The notes under the pieces are model-generated. The model did not search any database. It saw only the letters and a program-made list of their open reading frames with translations, and had not been told where the DNA came from. Both the position numbers and the translations under genes were made by a program. DNA of 64,000 bases, taken from IMG/VR virus record IMGVR_UViG_3300027668_000008, positions 124,001 to 188,000 of that record; one strand, given 5' to 3'. This document shows, piece after piece, positions 330 to 26,865 of the stretch (positions are counted from its first letter, which is position 1; every line of letters starts with the position of its first letter). Origin of the DNA: a virus.

Positions 330-1358
330 TTAATTGTTAAAAGATTCAAAGAATTTTATACTTGCTAAATTCTTTGCTTTTGATTCTACCATAATATCTG
401 CAAACTCATTAAATGTGGATGCCCAAGTATTTACCGCATTATTCCACATAAAGTCACTATGTCCACGCATCTTGCCTTTTTTGTAACCTTGTTCTAATAA
501 TAATTCCTTATCAGGTAATGTGTTAACATCGTGGTCTATAAGATAGTCAAGTCTACTTACTGAATAATGCATTGCAGGACGTAAGCCACGCCAACTATCT
601 ATTACGCCTTTAAATCTATCATCGGAGGGTTGTATGTATTCACCACTTTTGACCCAGTGATGGTGTATGTCAAGTACGAGTGCGAGGTGCTTGCCAAGTT
701 CGAGACTGTCTTCGATGCCCCACGAGTTTTCGTCGTTTTCAATGGTAATAACATTTCTCGCCTCTTTAGAAAGTCTTGGGAGGACATTAATGATACCGGT
801 TGGACCTTGTCTACCTGATATATGGACATTGCATTTGAAGTCTTGGAACTCCTTGCCGTAGCCCATGAATTTGATGCAATCAACATGATATTCGAACTCC
901 TCTATACTACGTTCTACAACTTCGGGCCTATCACTTGCTAATACAACAAATTGACCAGGGTGCATACTAAGACGTACATCATGTTGTCTGGCAATGTCGC
1001 CTACTTTAATTAAGTTGTCTTCTAAATATTTTTGTACATATGCTTGTTGCCAAAAGTAACGCCAACTAGGTTCTGTGTATGCTGGTAGCAAGTCACTGCC
1101 TAGTCTAAGCATTCTTAGTTCTGGTTGTAATGTACTTACATAGGTAATAAGATTTTTGTACGATTCAATATTATGAACCATAATATCCCAAAGTCGTTGT
1201 TCAGCAACTTCTTTAGTTTGCCTATTAAGCCATGAGATTGTTGTCGACCTACTGTTGTAAGGACGTTGCAGTTCTTCTAATACTTTTTTATTTTGGGTTT
1301 GATCTGCTACCATGTACTTACAAGCGAAACCAACTCTTTTTATATCTTGATTAAACAT
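330..1358 (-). CDS. uvsE: UV damage endonuclease UvsE/UVDE
   Basis: Metal-dependent endonuclease that nicks DNA 5' of UV photoproducts, starting an alternative excision repair. The 342-residue protein has the family length and its marks: GFACKY near the N-terminus, LRLGSDLLPAYTEP (about 85-97), HPGQFVVL with a metal-ligand His133, IENDE around Glu207, LDIHHHW around 230-235, His264 and a late GHSDFMW (His300). These form the TIM-barrel metal site of the UvsE family. A sigma70-like promoter lies just upstream at 1391-1419. DNA repair genes are common in marine phages exposed to sunlight. Confidence 0.95.
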   Translation of the reverse strand: MFNQDIKRVGFACKYMVADQTQNKKVLEELQRPYNSRSTTISWLNRQTKEVAEQRLWDIMVHNIESYKNLITYVSTLQPELRMLRLGSDLLPAYTEPSWRYFWQQAYVQKYLEDNLIKVGDIARQHDVRLSMHPGQFVVLASDRPEVVERSIEEFEYHVDCIKFMGYGKEFQDFKCNVHISGRQGPTGIINVLPRLSKEARNVITIENDENSWGIEDSLELGKHLALVLDIHHHWVKSGEYIQPSDDRFKGVIDSWRGLRPAMHYSVSRLDYLIDHDVNTLPDKELLLEQGYKKGKMRGHSDFMWNNAVNTWASTFNEFADIMVESKAKNLASIKFFESFNN

Positions 1359-6121: not shown

Positions 6122-6239
6122 CTTTGCCTCTCTTGAATAACTTATTATACTAGTACTTATCTTCTTCAAAGATAGGTAAATAATAATGTAAGTTAAGTAT
6201 TATAATAACAGAATTATGTTGTTATGTCAAGGAGAATGT

Positions 6240-6518
6240 ATGGATATTTTTAAACTCATAGCAGAACTAGGTTTCCCTATTGCAGGTGCTTTAGCGGCTG
6301 GCTTCTTTGTCTTTACAACAGTAAAATTTATACTTGCAAGTGTAACTAGTAGTATTCAAGGGCTAAAAGGTATTGTAGGCAGTTTAGACAACCGTGTACA
6401 AACAATGAATAACGACTTGGTTAAAATGGATTCATTAATAAGTTATGCATTTGGCGTTAAACCAAATGTAGACAGAATTGCCGCTAATGAAGGCAAAGAA
6501 GACGCAAGGAGAGACTAA
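6240..6518 (+). CDS. Small membrane protein, paralogue of 6815-7135
   Basis: Starting at the ATG at 6240, with AAGGAG five bases upstream (6229-6234), the protein has 92 residues: one transmembrane helix (about residues 9-28, GFPIAGALAAGFFVFTT) and a helical tail. It shares the GFPI-x-A-A-x-G-x-F-V core and a later L-D-N-D/N-N-D coil with the gene at 6815, so the two are probably duplicates. Holin or membrane-anchor roles are possible but not shown. Confidence 0.7.
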   Translation: MDIFKLIAELGFPIAGALAAGFFVFTTVKFILASVTSSIQGLKGIVGSLDNRVQTMNNDLVKMDSLISYAFGVKPNVDRIAANEGKEDARRD

Positions 6519-6802
6519 TGGCAGATATAGATATTAACCAAACAGTGGAAGCACCACCCGTTGATGATGGTTGCATTACTGAATGTTTTGGCGAAGCAGA
6601 CAGAGTTGGTGTAGAGTTCACTGACGCCGGTGTAGTTAAAAATATTACAATAGATGATAGTGTTTCCGGTATAGGTGATGTACAAGCAGGTATAGAATTT
6701 ATCTATAATATGCGAGAACATATGGTAGATATTAGTGTAGCCACAGTATATGCAATAACTGTGTATGCTCTTGTTTTATGGATTAAAAGGAAGTTAAGAT
6801 AG
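6518..6802 (+). CDS. Small C-terminally anchored membrane protein
   Basis: A 94-residue protein whose ATG overlaps the preceding TAA as TAATG, showing translational coupling. The first two-thirds are acidic and beta-like (CITECFGEADRVGVEFTDAG), the last third is a single transmembrane segment (about 73-89, VATVYAITVYALVLWI) followed by a KRKLR positive tail. Topology suggests N-terminus outside the cytoplasm or a tail anchor. Function unknown. Confidence 0.65.
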   Translation: MADIDINQTVEAPPVDDGCITECFGEADRVGVEFTDAGVVKNITIDDSVSGIGDVQAGIEFIYNMREHMVDISVATVYAITVYALVLWIKRKLR

Positions 6803-6814
6803 TGATATTTAAAC

Positions 6815-7135
6815 ATGATAGTAACAGATTTAATTAGCGATTACGGATTTCCTATTGTTGCCGCGGTGGGCATGGGATATTTCGTATATTATATATGGAA
6901 ATGGGTAACTATTGAAGTTAAACCTTTAATTGGCGCAACTAGTGGAACACTTATAGGGTTAATTGACCGTATAAGAATGCTCGATAACGACATGATAAGA
7001 TTAACACAAAAGATTAACATGGTTATAGAGTTCAAAGAAGAATACGAAAAACTAACGGGGAAGAAACTCGCAATGACTGTCGATGACATCGAATCGATTA
7101 AGAAAGAGAACTTAAAGAATGCTAAAAAGAAATAA
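6815..7135 (+). CDS. Small membrane protein with coiled-coil tail
   Basis: A 106-residue protein with one transmembrane helix (about 11-32, GFPIVAAVGMGYFVYYIWKW) and a long charged helical tail (RIRMLDNDMIRLTQKINMVIEF, KKENLKNAKKK end). It resembles the gene at 6240 in order and motifs. Third gene of the plus-strand block; its end overlaps the next small gene by 17 bases. Confidence 0.7.
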   Translation: MIVTDLISDYGFPIVAAVGMGYFVYYIWKWVTIEVKPLIGATSGTLIGLIDRIRMLDNDMIRLTQKINMVIEFKEEYEKLTGKKLAMTVDDIESIKKENLKNAKKK

Positions 7136-7268: not shown

Positions 7269-8241
7269 CAATTGGTAAGAATTTCCATTGTAATACGTTA
7301 TTATCTTTACAATAGTCTTCAAACCTATGTCTAATTGCAACAACATTATCTGCACCATATTTAATTCTAGTTGGCAAGTATGTAAAGATATTAGAACGCC
7401 ATATGCTAGAACCAGGCTTTATCCAGGAAAAATCTTCTATAATATCCTTATTAAGGAATTCAACTGGAATAGATTCAAACCAATCCCAAAAATCTTCTCT
7501 GTCTATACTATCAGGTAACTGATTTAATACCGTTTCTTTATTGGTATAAATTTCTTTGTAGTACTCGATACTGTGTTTGCTTATATCATAAAACACAACT
7601 GTGTCAGGTATTACGTTATTTTTATAATATTCAGTTAATGTTATAAATGGTTTGTTACCAGCACACAATAAGTAAAGTGTTTTATCATAAGAGTAAAATT
7701 TATCGTATTGTTCTTTGCTACAATCTTTGTACACAGGTTCTGTGTTTTCCACATATAACCTATCTAAGTCTAAATTATAGTTGTGTTCGGTTTCCCAATC
7801 ATCATCAGTTTTGACAAATGTATCCAATCCAACTTCTTTAGAAAACCATTTTATTGTTGTATTAACAGGAACATCTTGTACAAACGTATCAGATCCTGAC
7901 ACAAACCAATCATGATTTAATCGTATAACAAAACAAAAACTATTCATGTTTTTAAATGCAATAATATCCGGTTCATCTTTAATTGCTTCTTTTACAAAAT
8001 CTAACATTAATTCGTTACGCAAATATGTACCTTCTCGAACGATAAGTGCGTAATCTGCCTTGTTTCTGAGGTTAGTAAGAGTACTGTCTAATGTACCAGT
8101 AATTTTAAATATATCAATATGTTCGTTATCTGCTACAGTATTATCATCTCTGATCAATCCCATATCAAATATGTTTGACCAAGTTATGTTGTGTAAGTAC
8201 TCGTCACTTGTACAATTTAATGCTACTGCTACTAAATTCAT
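7222..8241 (-). CDS. Unknown 339-residue protein
   Basis: A soluble protein rich in aromatic and acidic residues, starting MNLVAVALNCTSDEYLHN. The segment ADYALIVREGTYLRNELML near residue 62 resembles the acceptor or nucleotide part of small glycosyltransferases but no DxD motif is clear. It overlaps the 2OG oxygenase gene upstream by 4 bases (ATGA type), so they are likely co-translated. Function not assigned. Confidence 0.65.
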   Translation of the reverse strand: MNLVAVALNCTSDEYLHNITWSNIFDMGLIRDDNTVADNEHIDIFKITGTLDSTLTNLRNKADYALIVREGTYLRNELMLDFVKEAIKDEPDIIAFKNMNSFCFVIRLNHDWFVSGSDTFVQDVPVNTTIKWFSKEVGLDTFVKTDDDWETEHNYNLDLDRLYVENTEPVYKDCSKEQYDKFYSYDKTLYLLCAGNKPFITLTEYYKNNVIPDTVVFYDISKHSIEYYKEIYTNKETVLNQLPDSIDREDFWDWFESIPVEFLNKDIIEDFSWIKPGSSIWRSNIFTYLPTRIKYGADNVVAIRHRFEDYCKDNNVLQWKFLPIVKLQVLQEIQTIKQQ

Positions 8242-8927
8242 ATCAACTTCCTGTAGTTTTCATAAGCCTGTTTCTTAAACTCTGTAGTTTTGCCACCATG
8301 TAAAATAATATGATATCTATGTTCATTGCTATTATTACGAACACTGTGCTTGTTACTTAAATCTAACCATGCACCTTTATTTTGTTTAAATGGTACAACT
8401 CCGACATCCTCCATAACAAATTCACATCCTTCTGGATTGTTAATTGCAATGTTGATAGGACCTAATCTACTTTTATCATAATCTCTATGTGATTCAATAT
8501 AACCACCGGGTGCTACAGACATAATTCTAATTCTATCAAAGTCTATAAAATAATTTTGTTCTAACAACCATTGTTTAAGTGAAGGTATACTGTTACTTGC
8601 GTTAGTCCAATCAAAGACTGCATCTTCTTCTTGTATATCATAAAACATTGGAGCATTAGTGAATTCATCACCTTGCCCGTGCATAACTAATGATGACCAA
8701 CCTTTTGATTGGTCTTCTCTGTGATTATAAAAGTTATCTTGTGCTTGTGATATTTCTTGTAAAATATTTTCTACAGGCATATTGACATCGAACATTAAAT
8801 AAGGTAACTTACTATCTGTTCTTAATTCAATTGGATTTTTACATTCTTTGTTAAAACTTAACATTTGTCGATTGTCTTTTCTTTTATTCTTGTTCGCCGT
8901 TTGCTTTACTTTTTGCGTAGGCGGCAT
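8238..8927 (-). CDS. 2-oxoglutarate/Fe(II) oxygenase, aspartyl/asparaginyl beta-hydroxylase-like
   Basis: Cupin-fold dioxygenase predicted to hydroxylate a peptide or small substrate using 2-oxoglutarate and Fe(II). The 229-residue frame shows PGGYIESHRDYD with ligands His147 and Asp149, NPEGCEFVMED, GAWLDLSNKHSV with the distal His194, and HRYHIILHG with Arg204 for 2-oxoglutarate. This is the aspartyl/asparaginyl hydroxylase pattern. The first 21 residues are basic and overlap the preceding small gene; the ATG at 8864 is a possible shorter start. Oxygenases of this class are frequent in marine myophages; the substrate is unknown. Confidence 0.82.
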   Translation of the reverse strand: MPPTQKVKQTANKNKRKDNRQMLSFNKECKNPIELRTDSKLPYLMFDVNMPVENILQEISQAQDNFYNHREDQSKGWSSLVMHGQGDEFTNAPMFYDIQEEDAVFDWTNASNSIPSLKQWLLEQNYFIDFDRIRIMSVAPGGYIESHRDYDKSRLGPINIAINNPEGCEFVMEDVGVVPFKQNKGAWLDLSNKHSVRNNSNEHRYHIILHGGKTTEFKKQAYENYRKLI

Positions 8928-9063
8928 CTGCTCTCATTTGTGTTGCTATTCGCAGTTGCATATAATCTCTTAAAGGTGGCTTAGTCTTTGGTTTATCTTT
9001 TCGTGCAGAACCCAGACTCAACGAATCTTTTATTTGCTTGTTGCGATGAATACTCCGTCCCAT
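8884..9063 (-). CDS. 59-residue basic protein, unknown
   Basis: ATG at 9063, stop at 8884-8886. The sequence MGRSIHRNKQIKDSLSLGSA is followed by a Lys/Pro-rich part (KDKPKTKPPLRDYMQL) and an Ala-rich helix (RIATQMRADAAYAKSKANG). It overlaps the end of the cyclase gene by 34 bases and the start of the oxygenase frame by 44 bases. The codon pattern looks coding, and no other gene fills this gap. Function unknown. Confidence 0.5.
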   Translation of the reverse strand: MGRSIHRNKQIKDSLSLGSARKDKPKTKPPLRDYMQLRIATQMRADAAYAKSKANGEQE

Positions 9064-11063
9064 TGTTTTGTACCTTTTCTTTTTAGCTCATGGGCCCGTT
9101 CAGACATTACTTCATAGTAATTATGAAGCTCTTCAGGGCATACACTTTGTAATTTGGAAATTTGATTAATCGCTAGATCCCACTTGGAATCTCTATATAA
9201 CTGCAAATATTTATCATGTTCCTTGACGTAATTAACTGCACACTCACTAAACAAAGCAGTATAAATGGTAGCCGGTACTGTCTTGCCCTTAACTGCTATT
9301 TTATCTAGTTCTATGAATGTGTATTCGTCGGATACTGAACTTTCACCAACTAACAATGTTAAACCGTACTCTTTACTTTGCCCCTCTAGTCTTGCCGCTA
9401 AATTAACACAATCACCCAAAACTGAGTAGTCAAAACGTTGATTAGACCCCATATTACCTACCACAGCACTACCTGTGTTAATACCAACACCAATTTTAAT
9501 AGGCATTAATCCTTCGGATTCTAATTCTTTATTAAGTTTTCTTAATGCAACAAACATCTCATCAGCAGTTTTAATTGCTAATTCACGTTGTTTAGGAACA
9601 TCTAAAGGTGCGTTCCAAAATGCCATAAGTGCATCACCAATATACTTGTCTACTGTGCCTTCGTTTTTCATAACAATATCTGTCATAGGTGTCATGTACC
9701 TATTAATTAAAGAAGTTAACCCTTGTGGATTTGTTTTGTATTGTTCACTAATAGGAGTAAATCCTCTAATGTCACTAAACAATAAAGTTAACTCTCTTGT
9801 ATCGCCACCTAACTTTAATAGTTCTGGATTTTGTTGTAATTTCTTAACCATAGCAGGTGCTAGATAGTGCTCAAACTGTTTTTTAATTTGTTGTTTTAAA
9901 CTAAACTCTTTTACAAATCTATTAAACACTGCATGAAAGCCTGTAAGTACAAATACTATTAATGGCATTGTTACATCGAGCAAATACAAATAGTGTTGCC
10001 ATGCATACAATGAACCATATACTAATCCTGCACTAACACTTAATATCGTAAGTCCAACAATATAATATGGTAATCTAACACTTATTAAAATAATAAGGAG
10101 ACCTAACGTAACAGAAGTTAGTAATTCAACTAGCACGGCCCAATACGGGCGTTGTATCTGGTCTCCGTCGATAACTGTTTGTAGTGTTACTGCCGAAGGT
10201 ATATAATTATATTTAGGACCAGTAGGTGTAGCAATTACTCCACCGATGCCTTCTGCTGTCGAACCTATAATAACTGTTTTGCCTGCGAATAAAGAAAAGT
10301 CGTCACTACTTGCACTAATTGTTTCAAACTCTTTATTCCAACGTAACCATATTTGTCCATTGGGATCTGTACTAATAATTGGATATCCCGGAACACGAAT
10401 TTTATCTATTCCGCCTTGGTTTGCTTTAATTTGATAACTTGGTTTACCTGTACTAACTCTAATAACTTCGATTGCTATTGATGGGTATGTGTTAGTGCCT
10501 ACTCTCATAATTAAAGGAACACGTCTTACAACACCATCTATCTCATTAGGTGTATTTAGAACACCAACGCCGTCTGCATTTAAGCCTAGTAACGGAATAG
10601 GTCCTAACATACCGGGCCATTCGAACAAATAAGGTACTGCATCACCTATTGTTGCAACTCCTCTTGTTACCGCATTTTTATTTACTTTTAAACTTCCTAC
10701 TTGTGCAATAACAATCCCATTGCCGGCTATCGATTCAACAAATGCTTGGTCACCGCCTAATCTATCATCTTCACTAAACAGTATAGGTATTACAATTACA
10801 CCTGCTCCTGCTTCACGCAACTTCCAAATAAGTTCTGCTAGAACATCACGTTTCCAGGGCCACTGTCCGTATTTTTCAATAGATGCTTCATCTATTGTTA
10901 CAATACCAATGTCGTTGGATACAACCGGAGTATCGGTTTGTTGTAGTAAATCAAACTGTTTAAGTCTCAATATTTCAACTATACTACTATTGCCGTAATG
11001 GAAGAAGGTTAGAACTGCCAATGTTACAAAGGCAGTTAACCAATGCGTTAAATATTTTTTCAT
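9030..11063 (-). CDS. CHASE2-domain class III adenylate cyclase
   Basis: Membrane sensor that makes a cyclic nucleotide, most likely cAMP. The 677 residues read: N-terminal membrane helix (about 10-30); extracytoplasmic CHASE2 domain (about 35-300, with ASIEKYGQWPWKRDVLAELI and a VIIGSTAEG); three membrane helices (about 307-385); cytoplasmic class III cyclase domain (about 423-600). Catalytic positions are present: Asp431 in FSDIRGF and Asp477 in DKYIGDAL bind metal; Lys473 and Asp551 fit adenine selection; Asn554 and Arg558 in NLAARLE stabilise the transition state. In bacteria CHASE2 cyclases often sit beside FecR-domain genes, as here. A late-type box abuts its ATG, so the transcript may be leaderless. 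Confidence 0.93.
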   Translation of the reverse strand: MKKYLTHWLTAFVTLAVLTFFHYGNSSIVEILRLKQFDLLQQTDTPVVSNDIGIVTIDEASIEKYGQWPWKRDVLAELIWKLREAGAGVIVIPILFSEDDRLGGDQAFVESIAGNGIVIAQVGSLKVNKNAVTRGVATIGDAVPYLFEWPGMLGPIPLLGLNADGVGVLNTPNEIDGVVRRVPLIMRVGTNTYPSIAIEVIRVSTGKPSYQIKANQGGIDKIRVPGYPIISTDPNGQIWLRWNKEFETISASSDDFSLFAGKTVIIGSTAEGIGGVIATPTGPKYNYIPSAVTLQTVIDGDQIQRPYWAVLVELLTSVTLGLLIILISVRLPYYIVGLTILSVSAGLVYGSLYAWQHYLYLLDVTMPLIVFVLTGFHAVFNRFVKEFSLKQQIKKQFEHYLAPAMVKKLQQNPELLKLGGDTRELTLLFSDIRGFTPISEQYKTNPQGLTSLINRYMTPMTDIVMKNEGTVDKYIGDALMAFWNAPLDVPKQRELAIKTADEMFVALRKLNKELESEGLMPIKIGVGINTGSAVVGNMGSNQRFDYSVLGDCVNLAARLEGQSKEYGLTLLVGESSVSDEYTFIELDKIAVKGKTVPATIYTALFSECAVNYVKEHDKYLQLYRDSKWDLAINQISKLQSVCPEELHNYYEVMSERAHELKRKGTKQWDGVFIATSK

Positions 11064-11068
11064 ACTAG

Positions 11069-11076
11069 TATTTATT
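11069..11076 (-). promoter_or_regulatory. T4-late-like promoter abutting the cyclase start
   Basis: AATAAATA followed by CTAGT and then the ATG of the cyclase gene. With T4 spacing the transcript would begin at the A of ATG. No ribosome-binding site fits between box and ATG. Confidence 0.5.
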
Positions 11077-11094
11077 TAAAGGAAATTTGGGGTG

Positions 11095-12549
11095 CTAATC
11101 TGATTGTGTAAAGGTCGTTGTTCCACAACCAGCGGCATTAGTGCAACTTTGTGTTAAACTATATGTCTTATCTGAACTACCATCTTGGTGTAAATCCAAT
11201 GTACTTGAATACCCAGACATATTAATTGTTGCGGCATGGTCGCCTGATCCATCTTGGTCAACTGAAACAGTTTGGTTACTTCCAACTGTAATGTCTTGAA
11301 AGTGTGTTCCTGTTCCGGCTTGGTCTAAATCTAATGTGTTAGAACTTCCGTTAATATCCACAAACATCATTTTATCGCCATCGTCATTTTGTTGTAAATT
11401 TATATTGTTACTATTTCCTGCAATGTCGACATCCATAAAATGACCCAAGTTACCAACGGCTCCGTCTTCTTCTTGAGTGAAAGTTCCTGTATTACTATTA
11501 CCAACTACATTTAATCTTAAATCATGGTCACCATCATCATCGATATTGTCACCTTGTCGTATTGTCATAGTGTTACTATTTCCGTTAATATCTAGCAAAA
11601 CAGTATTGCCATCACTAAATGATCCTGAGTTATTACCCTGTGTAATTGATAGTGTATTATCGTCGCCAGTTATTTCTGCGTTGTCGATACTGCTGGAAGT
11701 TGTTCCTAAACCTGCAACTAAATTATCATTGTCGTATTGTATAATGTCTATGTTTGCATTATTACCACTTTGTGTAATATAAATTCCGTTGCCACTGTGT
11801 GTTATTCCTCTTGTAGTTGATCTTAAATTAGTTTGTGCAGTTGTAGGTTCTGAAGTATATGATGCTGGACTGAATACGCCTTCCTCTTCAAGTGTTTCTC
11901 CTAAAAAGACATACATTCTTGCTGAACGAGTTGTGTTAGCATTATTAAATTGTGCCTGGTCTAAAGTGATAATTAATTTACCACCATTACTACCATAACC
12001 ATATACTGCCCAAGATTTCCAGCCACTAAGGCCTGATGCTGTATTTGACGCTATCGCCGTACCACCCGATTGCATTGAAAAAAGATTTCTTGTTACCCAT
12101 GAATTTGAAACGGTATATTGAGAACCATTAGCGTGAGAAGTATAGTTTGCCTCACCATTGTATATTGAGATAGCACCTACACTTAATTTACTTTCAACAA
12201 GCGATTCAATGCTCAGCGTTCTAGCGCCATCATGGTCACCATTACCAGCAATTAAAACTGTGCCACCTGCACTAATGTAAGTTTCATATGCTGTCTTACA
12301 GGTACCACCACAACTGTTATTACCTGCTATGTTAATGTGTAAATCTTTACCAGTAAAATCACTTAAAGTAACTGAACCACTATTTGTGCCTGTAACTGTA
12401 AACCCATGACCCTCTAACTCACCTTTTACTTTATTGTACATATTGGTATCAGTATAGTTTATATGAGCTGTTTCGGCAAATGCTTGTATAGGTAATACTA
12501 ATAATAAACTAATTAGACTGATTAATAGTGATCTGATTAACACCGGCAT
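11095..12549 (-). CDS. Secreted curlin-repeat protein with extra N-terminal domain
   Basis: Probable fibre subunit exported through the CsgG pore. Residues 1-26 are a signal peptide ending QAFA-E. Residues about 27-220 form a globular domain starting HINYTDTNMYNKVKGELEGHG, with AGGTVLIAGNGDHDG, that resembles a flavodoxin/GATase-like fold by eye. From about 245 to the end there are at least eight curlin-type repeats of GNxNxxxxxQxG spacing (ITQSGNNANIDIIQYDN, GNSNTMTIRQGDN, GNSNNINLQQNDDGD). It ends FTQSD, like the other curlin protein here. Much longer than CsgA/CsgB (about 150), and the N-terminal domain is not part of known curlins. Its start overlaps the FecR gene by 41 bases. Confidence 0.85.
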   Translation of the reverse strand: MPVLIRSLLISLISLLLVLPIQAFAETAHINYTDTNMYNKVKGELEGHGFTVTGTNSGSVTLSDFTGKDLHINIAGNNSCGGTCKTAYETYISAGGTVLIAGNGDHDGARTLSIESLVESKLSVGAISIYNGEANYTSHANGSQYTVSNSWVTRNLFSMQSGGTAIASNTASGLSGWKSWAVYGYGSNGGKLIITLDQAQFNNANTTRSARMYVFLGETLEEEGVFSPASYTSEPTTAQTNLRSTTRGITHSGNGIYITQSGNNANIDIIQYDNDNLVAGLGTTSSSIDNAEITGDDNTLSITQGNNSGSFSDGNTVLLDINGNSNTMTIRQGDNIDDDGDHDLRLNVVGNSNTGTFTQEEDGAVGNLGHFMDVDIAGNSNNINLQQNDDGDKMMFVDINGSSNTLDLDQAGTGTHFQDITVGSNQTVSVDQDGSGDHAATINMSGYSSTLDLHQDGSSDKTYSLTQSCTNAAGCGTTTFTQSD

Positions 12550-13600
12550 CTCCTAACTGTACATTATCTACACCAACAAAATTCTGCTTTAATGTTATGT
12601 TATAACTGTAATCTCTATCTAATCGTAGTTCCATAAAATTACCTGCACTATCTTCTTTAATAATAAGGTAACTAGGATCGTTTGTAAATGTTATTCCTGT
12701 TGTTTCGTCGAATCCAATTTTAAAACCATTCCTAGGATCAAATGCTTGTTTAAGTTTTTTGCTTAATTCTGCATTTAATACGACTAGTAAGTCTTGTAAA
12801 AAATCTTGTAATAAGAAGTCAATGTCTAATTCGTTTGCAAGTTCCTCATTTGATTCTTCTAATAAATCTTCATCTAAATCGTTAAATTCTAAAAAGTCAA
12901 TATCTAATGCACTTGATACATCTGATAGTTGCTCTGCTAGTTCTATTGCTTCTTGTAAATCCTTGGGCTTTTGTACGATTAACAAGTTGTTAATCATATT
13001 AGCATCTAAATCCAGTATAATAGGTTTTAAAGGTTTAGATTCAAATGTTGTAACTACTGTTGTTTGAAATGCTTGATTCATTATAACAAATCCTGCATCT
13101 GTTTCAACTTCAATTTCTCCTACATAACAGTTGCCGTTGCTATCGCAACTCGGTAGTAAAATTATAAGACTGCTTCCAATCTCATCTACTGTCATCGTGA
13201 AGTCAGTGCCTCTTACTCCAATGACTGCCGTAGGTGTTTTGATCTTTACATTTTGTTTAAACTTTTTTCCTATTTGCCCACTTGCATACCTAACTGTGCC
13301 TAAACTGGCTTTGATAGATAGTGATCCAATATCATTTGCAGGGTCATAGACAAATTCATCGATTATTACATTACTGTGTGGCGTAATTTCTAATTTAGTA
13401 TCGTCTATAAATTCTATATTTTGTTTATGCTTAAATGTTTCTATTCGGTCCATAGAGAATATATCAGAATCCACATCACCTTGTTCAGTTGTGTCTTCTC
13501 TATAAATCTTACTTGGTCCGTCCGATTTAGTAATTTTACCTATACTGGCAAATCCACTAGTCGGAAGAAAGCAGATTAGTATAACACAGAGCCACTTCAT
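12509..13600 (-). CDS. Secreted FecR-domain protein with curlin-like C-terminus
   Basis: Periplasmic or surface protein. Residues 1-18 are a signal peptide (MKWLCVILICFLPTSGFA). A FecR domain spans about 45-150, with the diagnostic TPTAVIGVRGTDF near residue 125. The middle is acidic and coiled (SSALDIDFLEFNDLDEDLLEE). The last 30 residues (NITLKQNFVGVDNVQLGDAG, then ITINQSN) look like one curlin repeat, so the protein may bind or seed the fibre. Its ATG overlaps the curlin gene's stop as TAATG. FecR-type proteins beside CHASE2 cyclases are a known bacterial arrangement. Confidence 0.85.
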   Translation of the reverse strand: MKWLCVILICFLPTSGFASIGKITKSDGPSKIYREDTTEQGDVDSDIFSMDRIETFKHKQNIEFIDDTKLEITPHSNVIIDEFVYDPANDIGSLSIKASLGTVRYASGQIGKKFKQNVKIKTPTAVIGVRGTDFTMTVDEIGSSLIILLPSCDSNGNCYVGEIEVETDAGFVIMNQAFQTTVVTTFESKPLKPIILDLDANMINNLLIVQKPKDLQEAIELAEQLSDVSSALDIDFLEFNDLDEDLLEESNEELANELDIDFLLQDFLQDLLVVLNAELSKKLKQAFDPRNGFKIGFDETTGITFTNDPSYLIIKEDSAGNFMELRLDRDYSYNITLKQNFVGVDNVQLGDAGVNQITINQSN

Positions 13601-14292
13601 TAGTCGCTCTGCGTAATGTCTATGTCAGAATTGGTGCCAACTGTTGTTAATTGTATTTTGTTGTCATAAATTCCACTTTGTGTAATGTCCACTGTAGTAC
13701 CTTCACCTGTATGATTATGTGTTAAACTATGTCCTGCACTATCTCCTGCGCCTGACATTATATAGTTCGCCGTGTTATCTACTGAACTGCCTAATGCATC
13801 ATTATCCATATCGATGTCTGCATCTGCGTTCGCGGCATTTACTGTTAGTGTGATAGTATCTTCGTTGCTAGTTGCTAAATCTATTGTTCCTACAAAGTTA
13901 GCCGATGATGCACTGGCTCCAATAGCAACTGTTACTGTTGCGTCATCGCCGACTACATCTATGCTCATACTTACTGTTTCACAATTAGAACTTGCACAAG
14001 TTAAAGCAACTGTGTTAGAGTTACCTGTTAAATCTATATTACCTGTGTAAGTAGTACCGTTAATAACTGTAGACACAACGTTACTGTTACCAACTTGATC
14101 AATATTAAATGTCATGCTGTTACCAGTTAAGGATATCGCTGTACTGCTGTTACCTGCCACGTTGTTCTGTCCGTCCTGTGTTATATCCAAGTTTAAATTA
14201 TTACCACTTTGTGTAATATAGATATCATTAGCATACACCGAACTTATAGAACAAACCAGAAACAAGAGCACATAAACTATTTTATTTGTCAT
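13600..14292 (-). CDS. Curlin-like secreted fibre subunit
   Basis: The 230-residue protein has a signal peptide (1-21, MTNKIVYVLLFLVCSISSVYA) followed by curlin repeats: NDIYITQSGNNLNLDITQDG, LTGNSMTFNIDQVGNSN, LTGNSNTVALTC, and near the end TVDITQSGIYDNK and SDIDITQSD. The Gln/Asn ladder positions match those of CsgA/CsgB amyloid repeats. The middle (about 110-170) is Asp/Ala/Thr-rich and less regular. It follows csgG with an 11-base overlap. Likely a major or nucleating subunit of an extracellular amyloid-type fibre. Confidence 0.85.
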   Translation of the reverse strand: MTNKIVYVLLFLVCSISSVYANDIYITQSGNNLNLDITQDGQNNVAGNSSTAISLTGNSMTFNIDQVGNSNVVSTVINGTTYTGNIDLTGNSNTVALTCASSNCETVSMSIDVVGDDATVTVAIGASASSANFVGTIDLATSNEDTITLTVNAANADADIDMDNDALGSSVDNTANYIMSGAGDSAGHSLTHNHTGEGTTVDITQSGIYDNKIQLTTVGTNSDIDITQSD

Positions 14293-15355
14293 TTATTTTC
14301 TCCGTCTGTTTCTGCCCTTTTAGTTTAGTTAACGTTTCCCATAGATACATATCAGCAGTGTTTTTAAAACAGTTGCCTCCTGCATTGCAAACGTTAAAGT
14401 CATCTCCCGGTGCTCCTTTTAGCATTTCACTTTCGTGCATAGTTGGGATTGAGTTAATGTCCGGTTTAGAAATAGGCACAGATTTTAATTTAGAACTTTG
14501 GAGAGTCGTATTTTTATCATCTGTATTAATTACTTCACCGGACTTATGGATTAACTTCGTAGTTTTTTGTGTCGTTTTCTTAAACTTCCACAAGCCCTTG
14601 ATTTCGCCTTCTTTGACGATCTCGACAATAGCCTGCTCAATAGCAAGTCTAACTGCCTGATTGGTAGGTTCATTAACTGCTGAACCTATCTCAATTTCTA
14701 ATGCTCTTGTACCTAAATCTAAAAATCTAAATACATCTGAGCTATCTTTATAACTTGCAATAGTCTTATCAACTGCAACCGACAGTAGTATTTCACCAGT
14801 TGATACACTAATAATTCTCATTGCCACAGATACTCTATCTGTTCTGTATTCTTTTGATGCTCCAATACCAAAGTATCTTGCACCTACACCGCCACTTTCA
14901 ATGTTGCTATCGTAACCTATAATAGCACCATCTAATAATAGTCCAGCAAATAACATAGGTTGTAATGCTAGTGCATCTTTACCTTCAAAATTTTCTCTTG
15001 TGCTTCTTATTAATTGTCTTTCTTTTACCAACGAGTCTAAACTAACACGTTCTAATACCTTAAACCATTTACCGCCTCCGGCTTGTTGCAATGCACGAAT
15101 CACATGACTCTCTGCACCTTGCGTTACTGCGGTACTTAATTGACTAAAATTTGTTGAAGGTTTACGTTGTCCTGTTTTATCTCCAAAGCCGTATAGTGCT
15201 ATGGTAATAATAGGTCCGTCGATTGGTGGTAAGTTTAGAAGTGCATTAACCCCTATTGGTATCGAAGCAGGTGGGTCGTATCTGACTTGCTTTACAGGGT
15301 TACCTGCACAAGCACCTAGTAACAATATGATGGATAATGCTACAAATATCCTCAT
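14282..15355 (-). CDS. csgG: CsgG-like outer-membrane curli export lipoprotein
   Basis: Forms the outer-membrane pore through which curlin subunits leave the cell. The 357-residue protein begins with a lipoprotein signal (LLLGACAG; lipid-bearing Cys16) and shows the CsgG core: ITIALYGFGDKTGQRK, STAVTQGAESHVIRAL, WFKVLERVSLDSLVKERQLIR, GGVGARYFGIGASKEYRTDRV and ISVSTGEILLSV. E. coli CsgG is 277 residues; here about 90 extra residues form a Lys/Thr-rich C-terminal extension from about residue 260. It lies 3 bases after csgF. The periplasmic partner CsgE is not seen in the window. Confidence 0.95.
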   Translation of the reverse strand: MRIFVALSIILLLGACAGNPVKQVRYDPPASIPIGVNALLNLPPIDGPIITIALYGFGDKTGQRKPSTNFSQLSTAVTQGAESHVIRALQQAGGGKWFKVLERVSLDSLVKERQLIRSTRENFEGKDALALQPMLFAGLLLDGAIIGYDSNIESGGVGARYFGIGASKEYRTDRVSVAMRIISVSTGEILLSVAVDKTIASYKDSSDVFRFLDLGTRALEIEIGSAVNEPTNQAVRLAIEQAIVEIVKEGEIKGLWKFKKTTQKTTKLIHKSGEVINTDDKNTTLQSSKLKSVPISKPDINSIPTMHESEMLKGAPGDDFNVCNAGGNCFKNTADMYLWETLTKLKGQKQTEKINDK

Positions 15356-15358
15356 CCA

Positions 15359-15808
15359 TTAAAACCCGAAGCCACTTAATGGCACCACTAGTTCACTAAA
15401 TGAACCATCGGCTTCAGTTATCTGTACAGTAATTGTACTCGAAGATGTATCTTTAATCCAGTATATAGTTGCACCTTCGACAGTTGCAGTACCACTATTG
15501 GCACCAGTGTCAGAAAACATACTATCAACTAAATTTTTGGATAAGTTTGCGTAAATTCTTGATTCAACGTTTGCTAAGAATTTTGAAAGAGTTTCTTGGG
15601 CGGCATCTCTAACTGCTTGTCTTTCAGCCGCTTCTTTGGCTTTCTTTATTTCAGCCGCACGTTGGAATTGGAGTTGCTCTATACTTAAGACGTGTGTACT
15701 ATAACCTTTTCCACTAAAGGAAGGATTTTTAAATTCATGTGTTAAGTCGCTGGCGTATGCAGGCGTCATAACGAACATAGTCAAGGCTATAGTGATAAAA
15801 AATTTCAT
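15359..15808 (-). CDS. csgF: CsgF-like curli assembly factor
   Basis: Accessory protein that in E. coli sits at the mouth of the CsgG pore and couples export to nucleation. The 149-residue protein has a signal peptide (1-19, ending PAYA-S) and the CsgF N-terminus LTHEFKNPSFSG, the part that inserts into CsgG, followed by an Ala/Lys-rich helix (about 45-85) and a C-terminal beta region (TIYWIKDTSSSTITVQITE). First gene of the export operon; a late promoter box at 15829 and GGAGAT ribosome site precede it. Confidence 0.93.
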   Translation of the reverse strand: MKFFITIALTMFVMTPAYASDLTHEFKNPSFSGKGYSTHVLSIEQLQFQRAAEIKKAKEAAERQAVRDAAQETLSKFLANVESRIYANLSKNLVDSMFSDTGANSGTATVEGATIYWIKDTSSSTITVQITEADGSFSELVVPLSGFGF

Positions 15809-15828
15809 AATAATACGATCTCCATTAG

Positions 15829-15836
15829 TATTTATA
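15829..15836 (-). promoter_or_regulatory. T4-late-type promoter of the curli-like operon
   Basis: Exact TATAAATA followed by CTAATGGAGAT, placing the transcript start about 15 bases upstream of csgF with a Shine-Dalgarno sequence in the leader. It ties the operon to phage late transcription. Confidence 0.65.
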
Positions 15837-15930: not shown

Positions 15931-15962
15931 GGACGGTAGTTTATAGCCCTTTACTACCGTCC
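15931..15962 (-). terminator. Perfect inverted repeat at end of Fis-like gene
   Basis: GGACGGTAGT and ACTACCGTCC pair over ten bases around a 12-base loop. The repeat includes the stop codon of the Fis-like gene. There is no T-run on the minus side (there is TTTTATTT on the plus side), so a factor-dependent stop, RNA stabiliser or operator is also possible. Confidence 0.45.
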
Positions 15963-16205
15963 TTTTATTTCTAAAACTTTCATTCTAGCAATGAGACGTG
16001 TTCTTCCCACACCCAAATATCTACTCGCGGCGGCAACTGACTTGTGCATTGTTAACGCCTCAGTTATCTCACTGGTTTCAATTTGTTTAAGTTTGTCTGG
16101 GAGGGTAGTGTCAAGGGATTCAATAGCAGAGCCTGGTGCTCCCCATATGTCGTCCATCATTTCGAACAGTACTGTCTGTTCATTTGTGAAAACGCCCTTG
16201 TTCAT
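15954..16205 (-). CDS. Fis-family (HTH_8) DNA-binding regulator
   Basis: Small predicted transcription regulator of 83 residues from the ATG at 16205; the frame is open to a TTG at 16232 but the late promoter box lies there. The C-terminal 40 residues (EITEALTMHKSVAAASRYLG, then VGRTRLIARMKVLEIKGR) match the helix-turn-helix of Fis and NtrC-type activators. Its position directly upstream of csgF suggests a role in controlling the export operon, which is inference. The TATAAATACTAGTATG arrangement predicts a leaderless late mRNA. Confidence 0.8.
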   Translation of the reverse strand: MNKGVFTNEQTVLFEMMDDIWGAPGSAIESLDTTLPDKLKQIETSEITEALTMHKSVAAASRYLGVGRTRLIARMKVLEIKGR

Positions 16206-16210
16206 ACTAG

Positions 16211-16218
16211 TATTTATA
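16211..16218 (-). promoter_or_regulatory. T4-late-type promoter abutting the Fis-like gene
   Basis: Exact TATAAATA, then CTAGT, then ATG. The spacing puts +1 at the start codon, the same block found before the cyclase gene. Confidence 0.6.
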
Positions 16219-16253
16219 TACCGCATAAACAAAGGCGTTTCTAAGTGGTTCTG

Positions 16254-16304: not shown

Positions 16305-16523
16305 TTAGTTATGTTCTCCACGATAAATTTTACCGCCTTTAGAAACATAAGGAATGTCTCCACGACAAATACCTATGTCATGTAATTCTGCATCTGATAA
16401 CCTAGAAAGAGTTCTTAAAGTTGTTGCGTTTGCTCGGCGCTTTTTGTAAGCATCTTGTATTCCTAAAACATACTCTTTAATTGTGTTGCAAATTGCACAA
16501 ACATTTAGTGTTATAGTAGACAT
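16305..16523 (-). CDS. DUF1127 (YjiS-like) small protein
   Basis: The 72-residue protein ends with the DUF1127 signature TLRTLSRLSDAELHDIGICR followed by GDIPYVS. DUF1127 proteins are abundant in alphaproteobacteria; some bind RNA and affect phosphate or stress regulation. An early CAICNTIKEYV gives two cysteines. The start overlaps the upstream gene's stop by one base. Probably acquired from a host. Confidence 0.85.
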   Translation of the reverse strand: MSTITLNVCAICNTIKEYVLGIQDAYKKRRANATTLRTLSRLSDAELHDIGICRGDIPYVSKGGKIYRGEHN

Positions 16524-26339: not shown

Positions 26340-26748
26340 TAAAATTACTTGGTACTTTTTATATATCTGTATATAGTTCGTCACGTTCACTGAAACGTGT
26401 GCAATTAGAAAGTGTATTTCCATGTTACCAGTGTATGCTTGTAACAATCCTTTGTCACTAATGTTTCTAACTTTGGTATATGCAACGATTTCTGTTGCTA
26501 GGTACGTTGCCAACCCCCACGTGCTTATTTTACTAAGCCGCTAATGCCATTTCTGGCTGATAATTGTTATTTGCAATTATAAAGTTTCTTCGCGATAACG
26601 GTGCTTAGATCCCGAGAACTCCACTAACTCTAGTAATTACCTGTCGATCCTATTCATCCCCATATGAAAAATCTGTTGTATTTGGTGGAGATGCCGGGAT
26701 TCGCACCCGGGTCCAGTTTAACTTTTGAATTGCTTCAACGTTCTAAGT
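26340..26748 (-). ncRNA. ssrA: Circularly permuted two-piece tmRNA
   Basis: Rescues stalled ribosomes and tags the nascent protein for proteolysis. On the minus strand the acceptor piece comes first: GGACCCGGGTGCGAATCCC (T-arm), then CATCTCC-ACCA ending at 26683. After a 21-base spacer the coding piece begins GGGGATG (26655-26661), which pairs with CATCTCC. It holds the tag frame 26533-26574 encoding ANNNYQPEMALAA and then TAG. The ALAA end is the Clp degron. Pieces in this order mark the permuted tmRNA of alphaproteobacteria. Outer boundaries are approximate; the 3' part to the terminator should contain pseudoknots. Drawn from motifs and pairing, not from a model search. Confidence 0.93.
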
Positions 26749-26751
26749 ATA

Positions 26752-26780
26752 TTTATACACTATTCACTTGACTTTGTCAA
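26752..26780 (-). promoter_or_regulatory. Sigma70 promoter of tmRNA, with embedded late box
   Basis: TTGACA (26775-26780), 17-base spacer, TATAAA (26752-26757). The -10 is part of TATAAATA (26750-26757), so both host and phage late polymerase could use it. Confidence 0.75.
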
Positions 26781-26796
26781 CCAAATAATATACAAA
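26768..26796 (+). promoter_or_regulatory. Sigma70-like promoter for the plus-strand block, divergent from tmRNA
   Basis: TTGACT (26768-26773), 17-base spacer, TACAAA (26791-26796). Its -35 forms the palindrome TTGACTTTGTCAA with the -35 of the tmRNA promoter. Confidence 0.45.
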
Positions 26797-26865
26797 TAAA
26801 GTACTAATATTAAAAATAAAAGATAAGTATTCTATAAAAGCAAAATACATCAACTAAAGGTAATT

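Follow-up and report, generated by a model that had tools for sequence, protein, structure and literature searches.

Curli-type genes have been described in several groups of ocean phages. CsgF and CsgG are already published for pelagimyophages (PMC7029224), the module of phage Melnitz was published with a lysis-timing proposal (PMC9004378), and the order CsgF-CsgG-CsgA/B-FecR-CsgA/B-adenylate cyclase was reported in myo- and podophages, where it is expressed in ocean metatranscriptomes (PMC9599517). In the annotations of HTVC008M and Melnitz, these six genes appear in identical order. This is also the gene set found in the stretch studied here, a window of 64,000 nucleotides (nt) covering positions 124001-188000 of the 306,714-base IMG/VR virus record IMGVR_UViG_3300027668_000008. 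Its minus strand carries, from position 15808 down to 9030, CsgF, CsgG, a first curlin-type protein (curlin 1), a FecR-domain protein, a second curlin-type protein (curlin 2) and a CHASE2 adenylate cyclase (Table 1). The cassette itself is a known kind of phage gene set and is not new. The original prediction made from this DNA was right to mention curli-type genes in pelagimyophages; its view that the union of cyclase, FecR and fibre is little described is not supported, as Wittmers et al. (2022) give this exact gene order (PMC9599517).

Comparison of related loci establishes, at the level of sequence, the gene content and order of the module, its late promoter, a curlin-like tail on the FecR protein and the linkage of two small membrane proteins, hA and hB. 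No earlier report was found of transfer into a jumbo lineage, of the FecR curlin-like tail, of the hA/hB linkage or of a conserved csgF late promoter, nor of phage cyclases with Ser in place of Asn or of Pelagibacteraceae mostly lacking a cyclic nucleotide monophosphate (cNMP)-binding protein. The cassette shares its six genes, their order and the lack of CsgE with the pelagiphage type VIII secretion (curli) systems of HTVC008M, pelagimyophages and HTVC023P-type podophages (Zaragoza-Solas 2020, Wittmers 2022) and of Melnitz (Buchholz 2022). It was originally called complete, a description to be qualified, since CsgE is absent as in the published phage modules. Unlike those systems, the cassette lies in a 306-kb jumbo phage with PA5oct/Phosso-type capsid and terminase, its CsgG is C-terminally extended, and hA and hB are encoded past the cyclase, on the other strand. 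With bacterial curli (csgBAC-csgDEFG, type VIII secretion) it has in common the CsgG pore, the FxNPxF plug motif of CsgF and putative substrates with curlin repeats of borderline score, whereas the phage lacks CsgE and adds FecR, the CHASE2 cyclase and hA/hB; at five sampled alphaproteobacterial CsgF loci, the profiles used here detected no FecR or CHASE2 neighbours.

Gene order, late promoter and transfer

All six minus-strand genes of the original prediction are present as open reading frames, and the single operon it proposed agrees with the gaps and overlaps between successive genes (+3, -11, -1, -41 and +31 nt). The end that it set at 9030 is too early, as the module genes at 6216-7135 were missed. 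A FecR scan of IMG/VR returned 65 loci, and CsgF, CsgG, curlin 1 and FecR keep the same order and strand in 60 of the 61 that hold all four. The cyclase adjoins the cassette in all 49 loci with enough flanking sequence (downstream in 47, upstream on the other strand in 2).

The T4-type late promoter TATAAATA ahead of csgF shows no excess in the window (10 occurrences against 11.7 expected) and was dropped as a count-based signal, a comparison across loci being needed instead. An exact TATAAATA stands just 5' of csgF in 29 of 60 related loci, where ~1.4 would be expected (0.024 per 180 nt), and it precedes csgG, cur1 or fecR in none of the 60. It is also found ahead of hA in 34 of 135 loci, and ahead of hB in none. 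This conservation is good comparative evidence that the operon is transcribed late, as originally suggested. Just upstream of csgF, in a region kept in the related locus L004, lies a gene for a Fis-type helix-turn-helix protein with its own TATAAATA ahead; the protein could be a regulator of the curli operon.

Locus L004 encodes cassette proteins 74-85% identical to those of the window, and its DNA is about 77% identical over the cassette and 4 kb of the flank upstream of it. Chimeric assembly, which absence of the cassette from relatives with the same flank would have suggested, is thereby ruled out. The dN/dS ratios for CsgF, CsgG, curlin 1 and FecR (0.09-0.20) indicate purifying selection.

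Judged from its core genes, the window phage is a T4-like jumbo phage with PA5oct/Phosso-type capsid and terminase. The originally proposed phage setting of the operon is likewise supported. Its large terminase subunit (TerL) and major capsid protein are 50-53% and 61-65% identical, respectively, to those of PA5oct, Phosso, Atu_ph07 and Vibrio phage 2.275.O, against about 33% for both in HTVC008M, and its late sigma factor gp55, UvsW, gp44, gp46/47 and polymerase are T4-like. None of the cultured PA5oct/Phosso-type relatives carries the cassette. The cassette proteins are 42-56% identical to those of HTVC008M, closer than the core phage proteins (mostly 20-38%), among which ribonucleotide reductase stands out at about 51%. 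Capsid proteins 74-75% identical to that of the window phage occur together with the cassette in L046 and L047 and in records of 357 and 383 kb, and in a concatenated tree L046 and L047 fall in a different cassette clade from the window. The closer relationship of the cassette than of the core proteins, together with this clade split, argues that the cassette crossed into the jumbo lineage by transfer between phages. A bacterial source of the whole cassette was not supported: a FecR scan of 84,980 genomes found the curli-linked form on only five contigs, all in metagenome-assembled genomes, one of which holds four CsgF contigs, and the five are probably phage contigs.

Pore, curlins and the tail of the FecR protein

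By family, CsgG is an outer-membrane lipoprotein pore, matching E. coli CsgG in the PDB (1.1e-51) and keeping its lipobox in 61 of 63 relatives. Most relatives stop at 262-294 residues; the window protein continues in a C-terminal extension of ~90 residues (14282-14550) with a Cys pair, FNVCNAGGNCF. CsgF has the N-terminal pore-binding segment, and its pore-plug/adaptor motif FKNPSFSGKGYSTHVL is kept among phage CsgF proteins; an apparent match of CsgF to a designed repeat protein in the PDB was spurious. These family matches support the originally proposed CsgG/CsgF pore with curlin substrates.

Both curlins match the Pfam Curlin_rpt family at borderline E-values (5.7e-4 and 1.8e-3) that fall just short of the curated threshold, and the first rises above it together with its neighbours in a search of the whole record (25.7 against 20.7 bits). 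Curlin 1 is the most conserved fibre candidate (dN/dS 0.09 against L004). In curlin 2, regular strands are predicted, preceded by an N-terminal head with a predicted class-I GATase/IFT52-like fold (E 0.003). This head is swapped for others or absent in other phages, as expected of a fibre tip or cargo.

The FecR protein consists of a signal peptide, a FecR beta-domain, a helical linker and a C-terminal beta stack. The two strand motifs near its C terminus are spaced by one curlin period. A terminal strand of curlin type is found in 61 of 61 phage FecR proteins (the frameshifted copy L026 having been excluded), in 58 of them as an exact N-x-phi-x-phi-x-Q, and in none of 77 bacterial relatives; residues Q339, G350 and Q361 of the tail are invariant. 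Against the end of curlin 2, the tail profile scores higher than 100 column shuffles and than nine control segments. In the AlphaFold model, the predicted confidence (pLDDT) is ~80 or more at residues 300-360, and beta-strands are predicted at 290-363. Foldseek gives a single confident local match in the PDB, to the domain that anchors an RTX adhesin to the cell surface (5ix9; r.m.s.d. 1.2 Å over 61 columns, E 0.022), and 5ix9 is also the top sequence-profile match (E 0.25, non-significant alone); the resemblance is a lead only. The architecture of a FecR anti-sigma regulator, with a cytoplasmic anti-sigma domain and a transmembrane (TM) helix, was not found: the protein has a signal peptide, and PF04773 is the only family detected. 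Taken together, the FecR protein looks like a fibre-linked component and not the ferric-citrate regulator named earlier.

The small membrane proteins and the cyclase

The proteins hA and hB are paralogues of about 90-110 residues, with a single TM segment near an acidic N terminus and, judging by charge, an N-out/C-in topology; the C terminus of hA is strongly conserved (GKxDARxD). In 50 of the 65 loci, relatives of the two lie just upstream of csgF or just past the cyclase on the opposite strand. One flank is cut off in 14 of the remaining 15, which gives 50 of 51 loci with both flanks. A scan seeded with hA and hB, independent of curli, returned at least 594 loci, and cassette genes were present in 73 of the best 80, the other seven being on short or truncated sequence. 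Of 50,697 phage records, six carry the cassette, and precisely these six have hA/hB; in 289 alphaproteobacterial genomes none was found (the phage itself serving as positive control). By this comparison of gene neighbourhoods, hA and hB belong to the curli module. A third small protein between them ('mid', 6518-6802) was rejected as a module part, being present in only 5 loci. Wittmers et al. report a short 'HK' (histidine kinase) gene ahead of csgF in podophages (PMC9599517), which, judged by position alone, may correspond to hA/hB. Pfam finds no match in hA/hB and thus no kinase domain; if this is the same gene, the label needs renaming.

In the window cyclase, the canonical metal, purine and transition-state residues are all intact. 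Among 40 aligned phage cyclases, 15 have Ser at the position of the transition-state Asn; none of the clearly bacterial partners is of this type. Ser-type cyclases (VSTAARIE, with intact metal sites) are found in L003, L040, L041, L043, L044, L047, L051-L054, L058, L060-L063 and L065; L049 has a canonical cyclase though it is placed in the Ser-type clade. The original statement that CHASE2 cyclases commonly neighbour FecR genes in bacteria is borne out: of 74 curli-free bacterial FecR loci, 28 have a CHASE2 protein nearby. Of these 28 proteins, 21 have a cyclase domain and 7, in Pelagibacteraceae, do not. The latter lie beside a short FecR gene that these SAR11-family genomes have themselves (L107, L110, L113, L114, L116, L122 and L127), and the two checked by Pfam carry a SpoIIE phosphatase. 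CHASE2/FecR signalling is thus present there without a cyclase or a known cAMP receptor. A class III cyclase was likewise not found in 58 of 60 Pelagibacteraceae genomes, many of which may be incomplete; this family hosts the cultured relative HTVC008M and may not be the host family of the window phage. As in the bacterial pairs, an exported FecR-domain protein of the phage is encoded next to a CHASE2 sensor whose output domain is cytoplasmic; unlike the phage protein, the bacterial copies are not beside curli genes and have no curlin-like tail. Related arrangements are known from a Burkholderia biofilm operon, in which a LysM-FecR protein stands beside a CHASE2 histidine kinase (PMC5192318), and deletion of CHASE2 renders the rhizobial cyclase CyaD1 constitutive (PMC5498481).

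Elsewhere in the window, the phage encodes a permuted transfer-messenger RNA (tmRNA) whose alpha type hints at an alphaproteobacterial host. Melnitz has a tmRNA too, described as being under a glutamine riboswitch (PMC9004378); in the 64-kb window, no riboswitch reaches the Rfam threshold. An aspartyl/asparaginyl beta-hydroxylase-like gene adjoins the cassette, and this family is counted as core in pelagimyophages (PMC7029224). The phage also carries a UvdE UV-damage endonuclease gene and a gene of DUF1127, a small, mostly bacterial family.

Table 1. Features of the module and its surroundings, in window coordinates (Pfam E-values; PHROG, E-values against phage-built families)
Feature	Position	Strand	Details
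UvdE UV-damage endonuclease gene	330-1358	-	Pfam 5.1e-40
hA, small one-TM protein	6216..6518	+	phrog_18771; likely start ATG 6240; obligate cassette neighbour in relatives
hB, hA paralogue	6815..7135	+	one TM and cytoplasmic helix; weak holin resemblance
Aspartyl/asparaginyl beta-hydroxylase-like gene	8238-8927	-	
CHASE2 adenylate cyclase, 677 aa	9030..11063	-	CHASE2 15-323 (9.2e-42); class III domain 423-597 (Guanylate_cyc 2.6e-19); PHROG 1.4e-229
Curlin-type protein 2, 484 aa	11095..12549	-	signal peptide, head, then curlin repeats
FecR curlin-like C-terminal repeat	12512..12604	-	YNITLKQ, 22 residues on NQITINQ, then SN-COOH
Exported FecR-domain protein, 363 aa	12509..13600	-	Pfam FecR 1.3e-7; AlphaFold model; 5ix9 match; PHROG 1.8e-112
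Curlin-type protein 1, 230 aa	13600..14292	-	Pfam Curlin_rpt and conservation
CsgG, 357 aa, outer-membrane lipoprotein secretion pore (by family)	14282..15355	-	PF03783 1.3e-49; PHROG 2.1e-81
CsgF, 149 aa	15359..15808	-	signal peptide and pore-plug motif FKNPSFSGKGYSTHVL; PF10614 2.9e-14; PHROG 6.8e-48
T4-type late promoter TATAAATA	15829..15836	-	20 nt ahead of csgF ATG
Fis-type helix-turn-helix gene	15954-16232	-	
DUF1127 gene	16305-16523	-	
Permuted tmRNA, alpha type, phage-encoded	26442-26799	-	tag ANNNYQPEMALAA

Proposed working and alternatives

The best model, to which we give an even chance, is that curlin fibres are exported through CsgG/CsgF late in infection and that the FecR-CHASE2 pair reports the state of export. 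The eight genes would form a curli-type (type VIII secretion) module, in which the CsgG outer-membrane pore, with CsgF as plug and adaptor, exports two curlins, the second bearing a variable globular head, that polymerize on the surface of the infected cell; from the known families we infer both export and the formation of a fibre or amyloid. The curlin-like repeat of the exported FecR protein would join or template the fibre, its FecR domain staying by the envelope. More speculatively, this periplasmic domain might be read by the CHASE2 region of the inner-membrane cyclase, so that fibre export sets cyclase activity, with the paired hA and hB as dedicated inner-membrane partners of the module; the phage might conceivably benefit if progeny or new hosts stayed close to the cell or if rival phages were kept off.

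Several observations weigh against this model. CsgE was not found in the phage genome by a search whose E. coli control was positive, and the curlin repeats are degenerate and borderline in Pfam. The FecR tail gives no match to Pfam Curlin_rpt, its profile scores against curlin 1 not clearly better than controls, and the mean pLDDT of the FecR model is only 65. The phage encodes no cNMP-binding protein, and none was found in 58 of the 60 Pelagibacteraceae genomes, with the same caveat of completeness, which leaves the originally proposed role of cAMP as signal unproven. The cyclase is not always present in the podophage modules of Wittmers et al. (PMC9599517), so FecR must do something there without it. 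Finally, Melnitz-infected cultures show no clumping (PMC9004378), which counts against simple aggregation. It is a more tentative proposal, and one we doubt, that the eight genes are a self-contained, horizontally moving export-and-sensing system in which a curlin-tailed FecR protein ties the fibre to the CHASE2 cyclase, the module-only hA/hB act in the inner membrane and the nucleotide signal has no known receptor in SAR11-like hosts.

A role in lysis timing, in which CsgG/CsgF open the outer membrane and hA/hB work in the inner membrane much like a holin and its antiholin, is unlikely. It builds on the pinholin or gated-secretin hypothesis of Buchholz et al. (PMC9004378) and fits the late promoters ahead of csgF and hA, as well as the paired, one-TM, N-out/C-in arrangement of hA/hB. 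hA/hB weakly match a holin PHROG (13 of 28 members, best 1.8e-5), but the match spans only 18 residues, and the restriction of hA/hB to cassette phages means that they are not general holins. Two conserved curlins and a curlin-tailed FecR protein would moreover be superfluous for lysis, and CsgF retains its adaptor motif.

Less probable still is a surface coat or plug of curlins and FecR against superinfection, with the cyclase product as a separate internal antiviral or metabolic signal. Superinfection exclusion is among the published suggestions (PMC9599517), and the presence of two catalytic cyclase types at one cassette position, swapped in L049, indicates that the cyclase can be exchanged independently; its constant adjacency to the cassette suggests instead that it is tied to the module. 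Least likely is that the pore serves to take up or expel small molecules or iron and that FecR is a regulator linked to iron (PMC7029224, PMC9599517): the phage FecR carries a signal peptide and lacks an anti-sigma domain, FecR beta-domains are common well beyond iron uptake, and the conserved curlins and FecR tail would be left unexplained.

The role of curli genes in ocean phages has attracted several competing guesses, which the present results narrow. The FecR protein appears as a fibre component instead of an iron regulator, and hA and hB, overlooked companions of the cassette, should be part of any functional test. In hosts of Pelagibacteraceae type, most sampled genomes of which have no recognised cNMP-binding protein, the cyclase signal needs a new explanation. 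The curli cassette, by the comparisons made here, has also reached jumbo phages.

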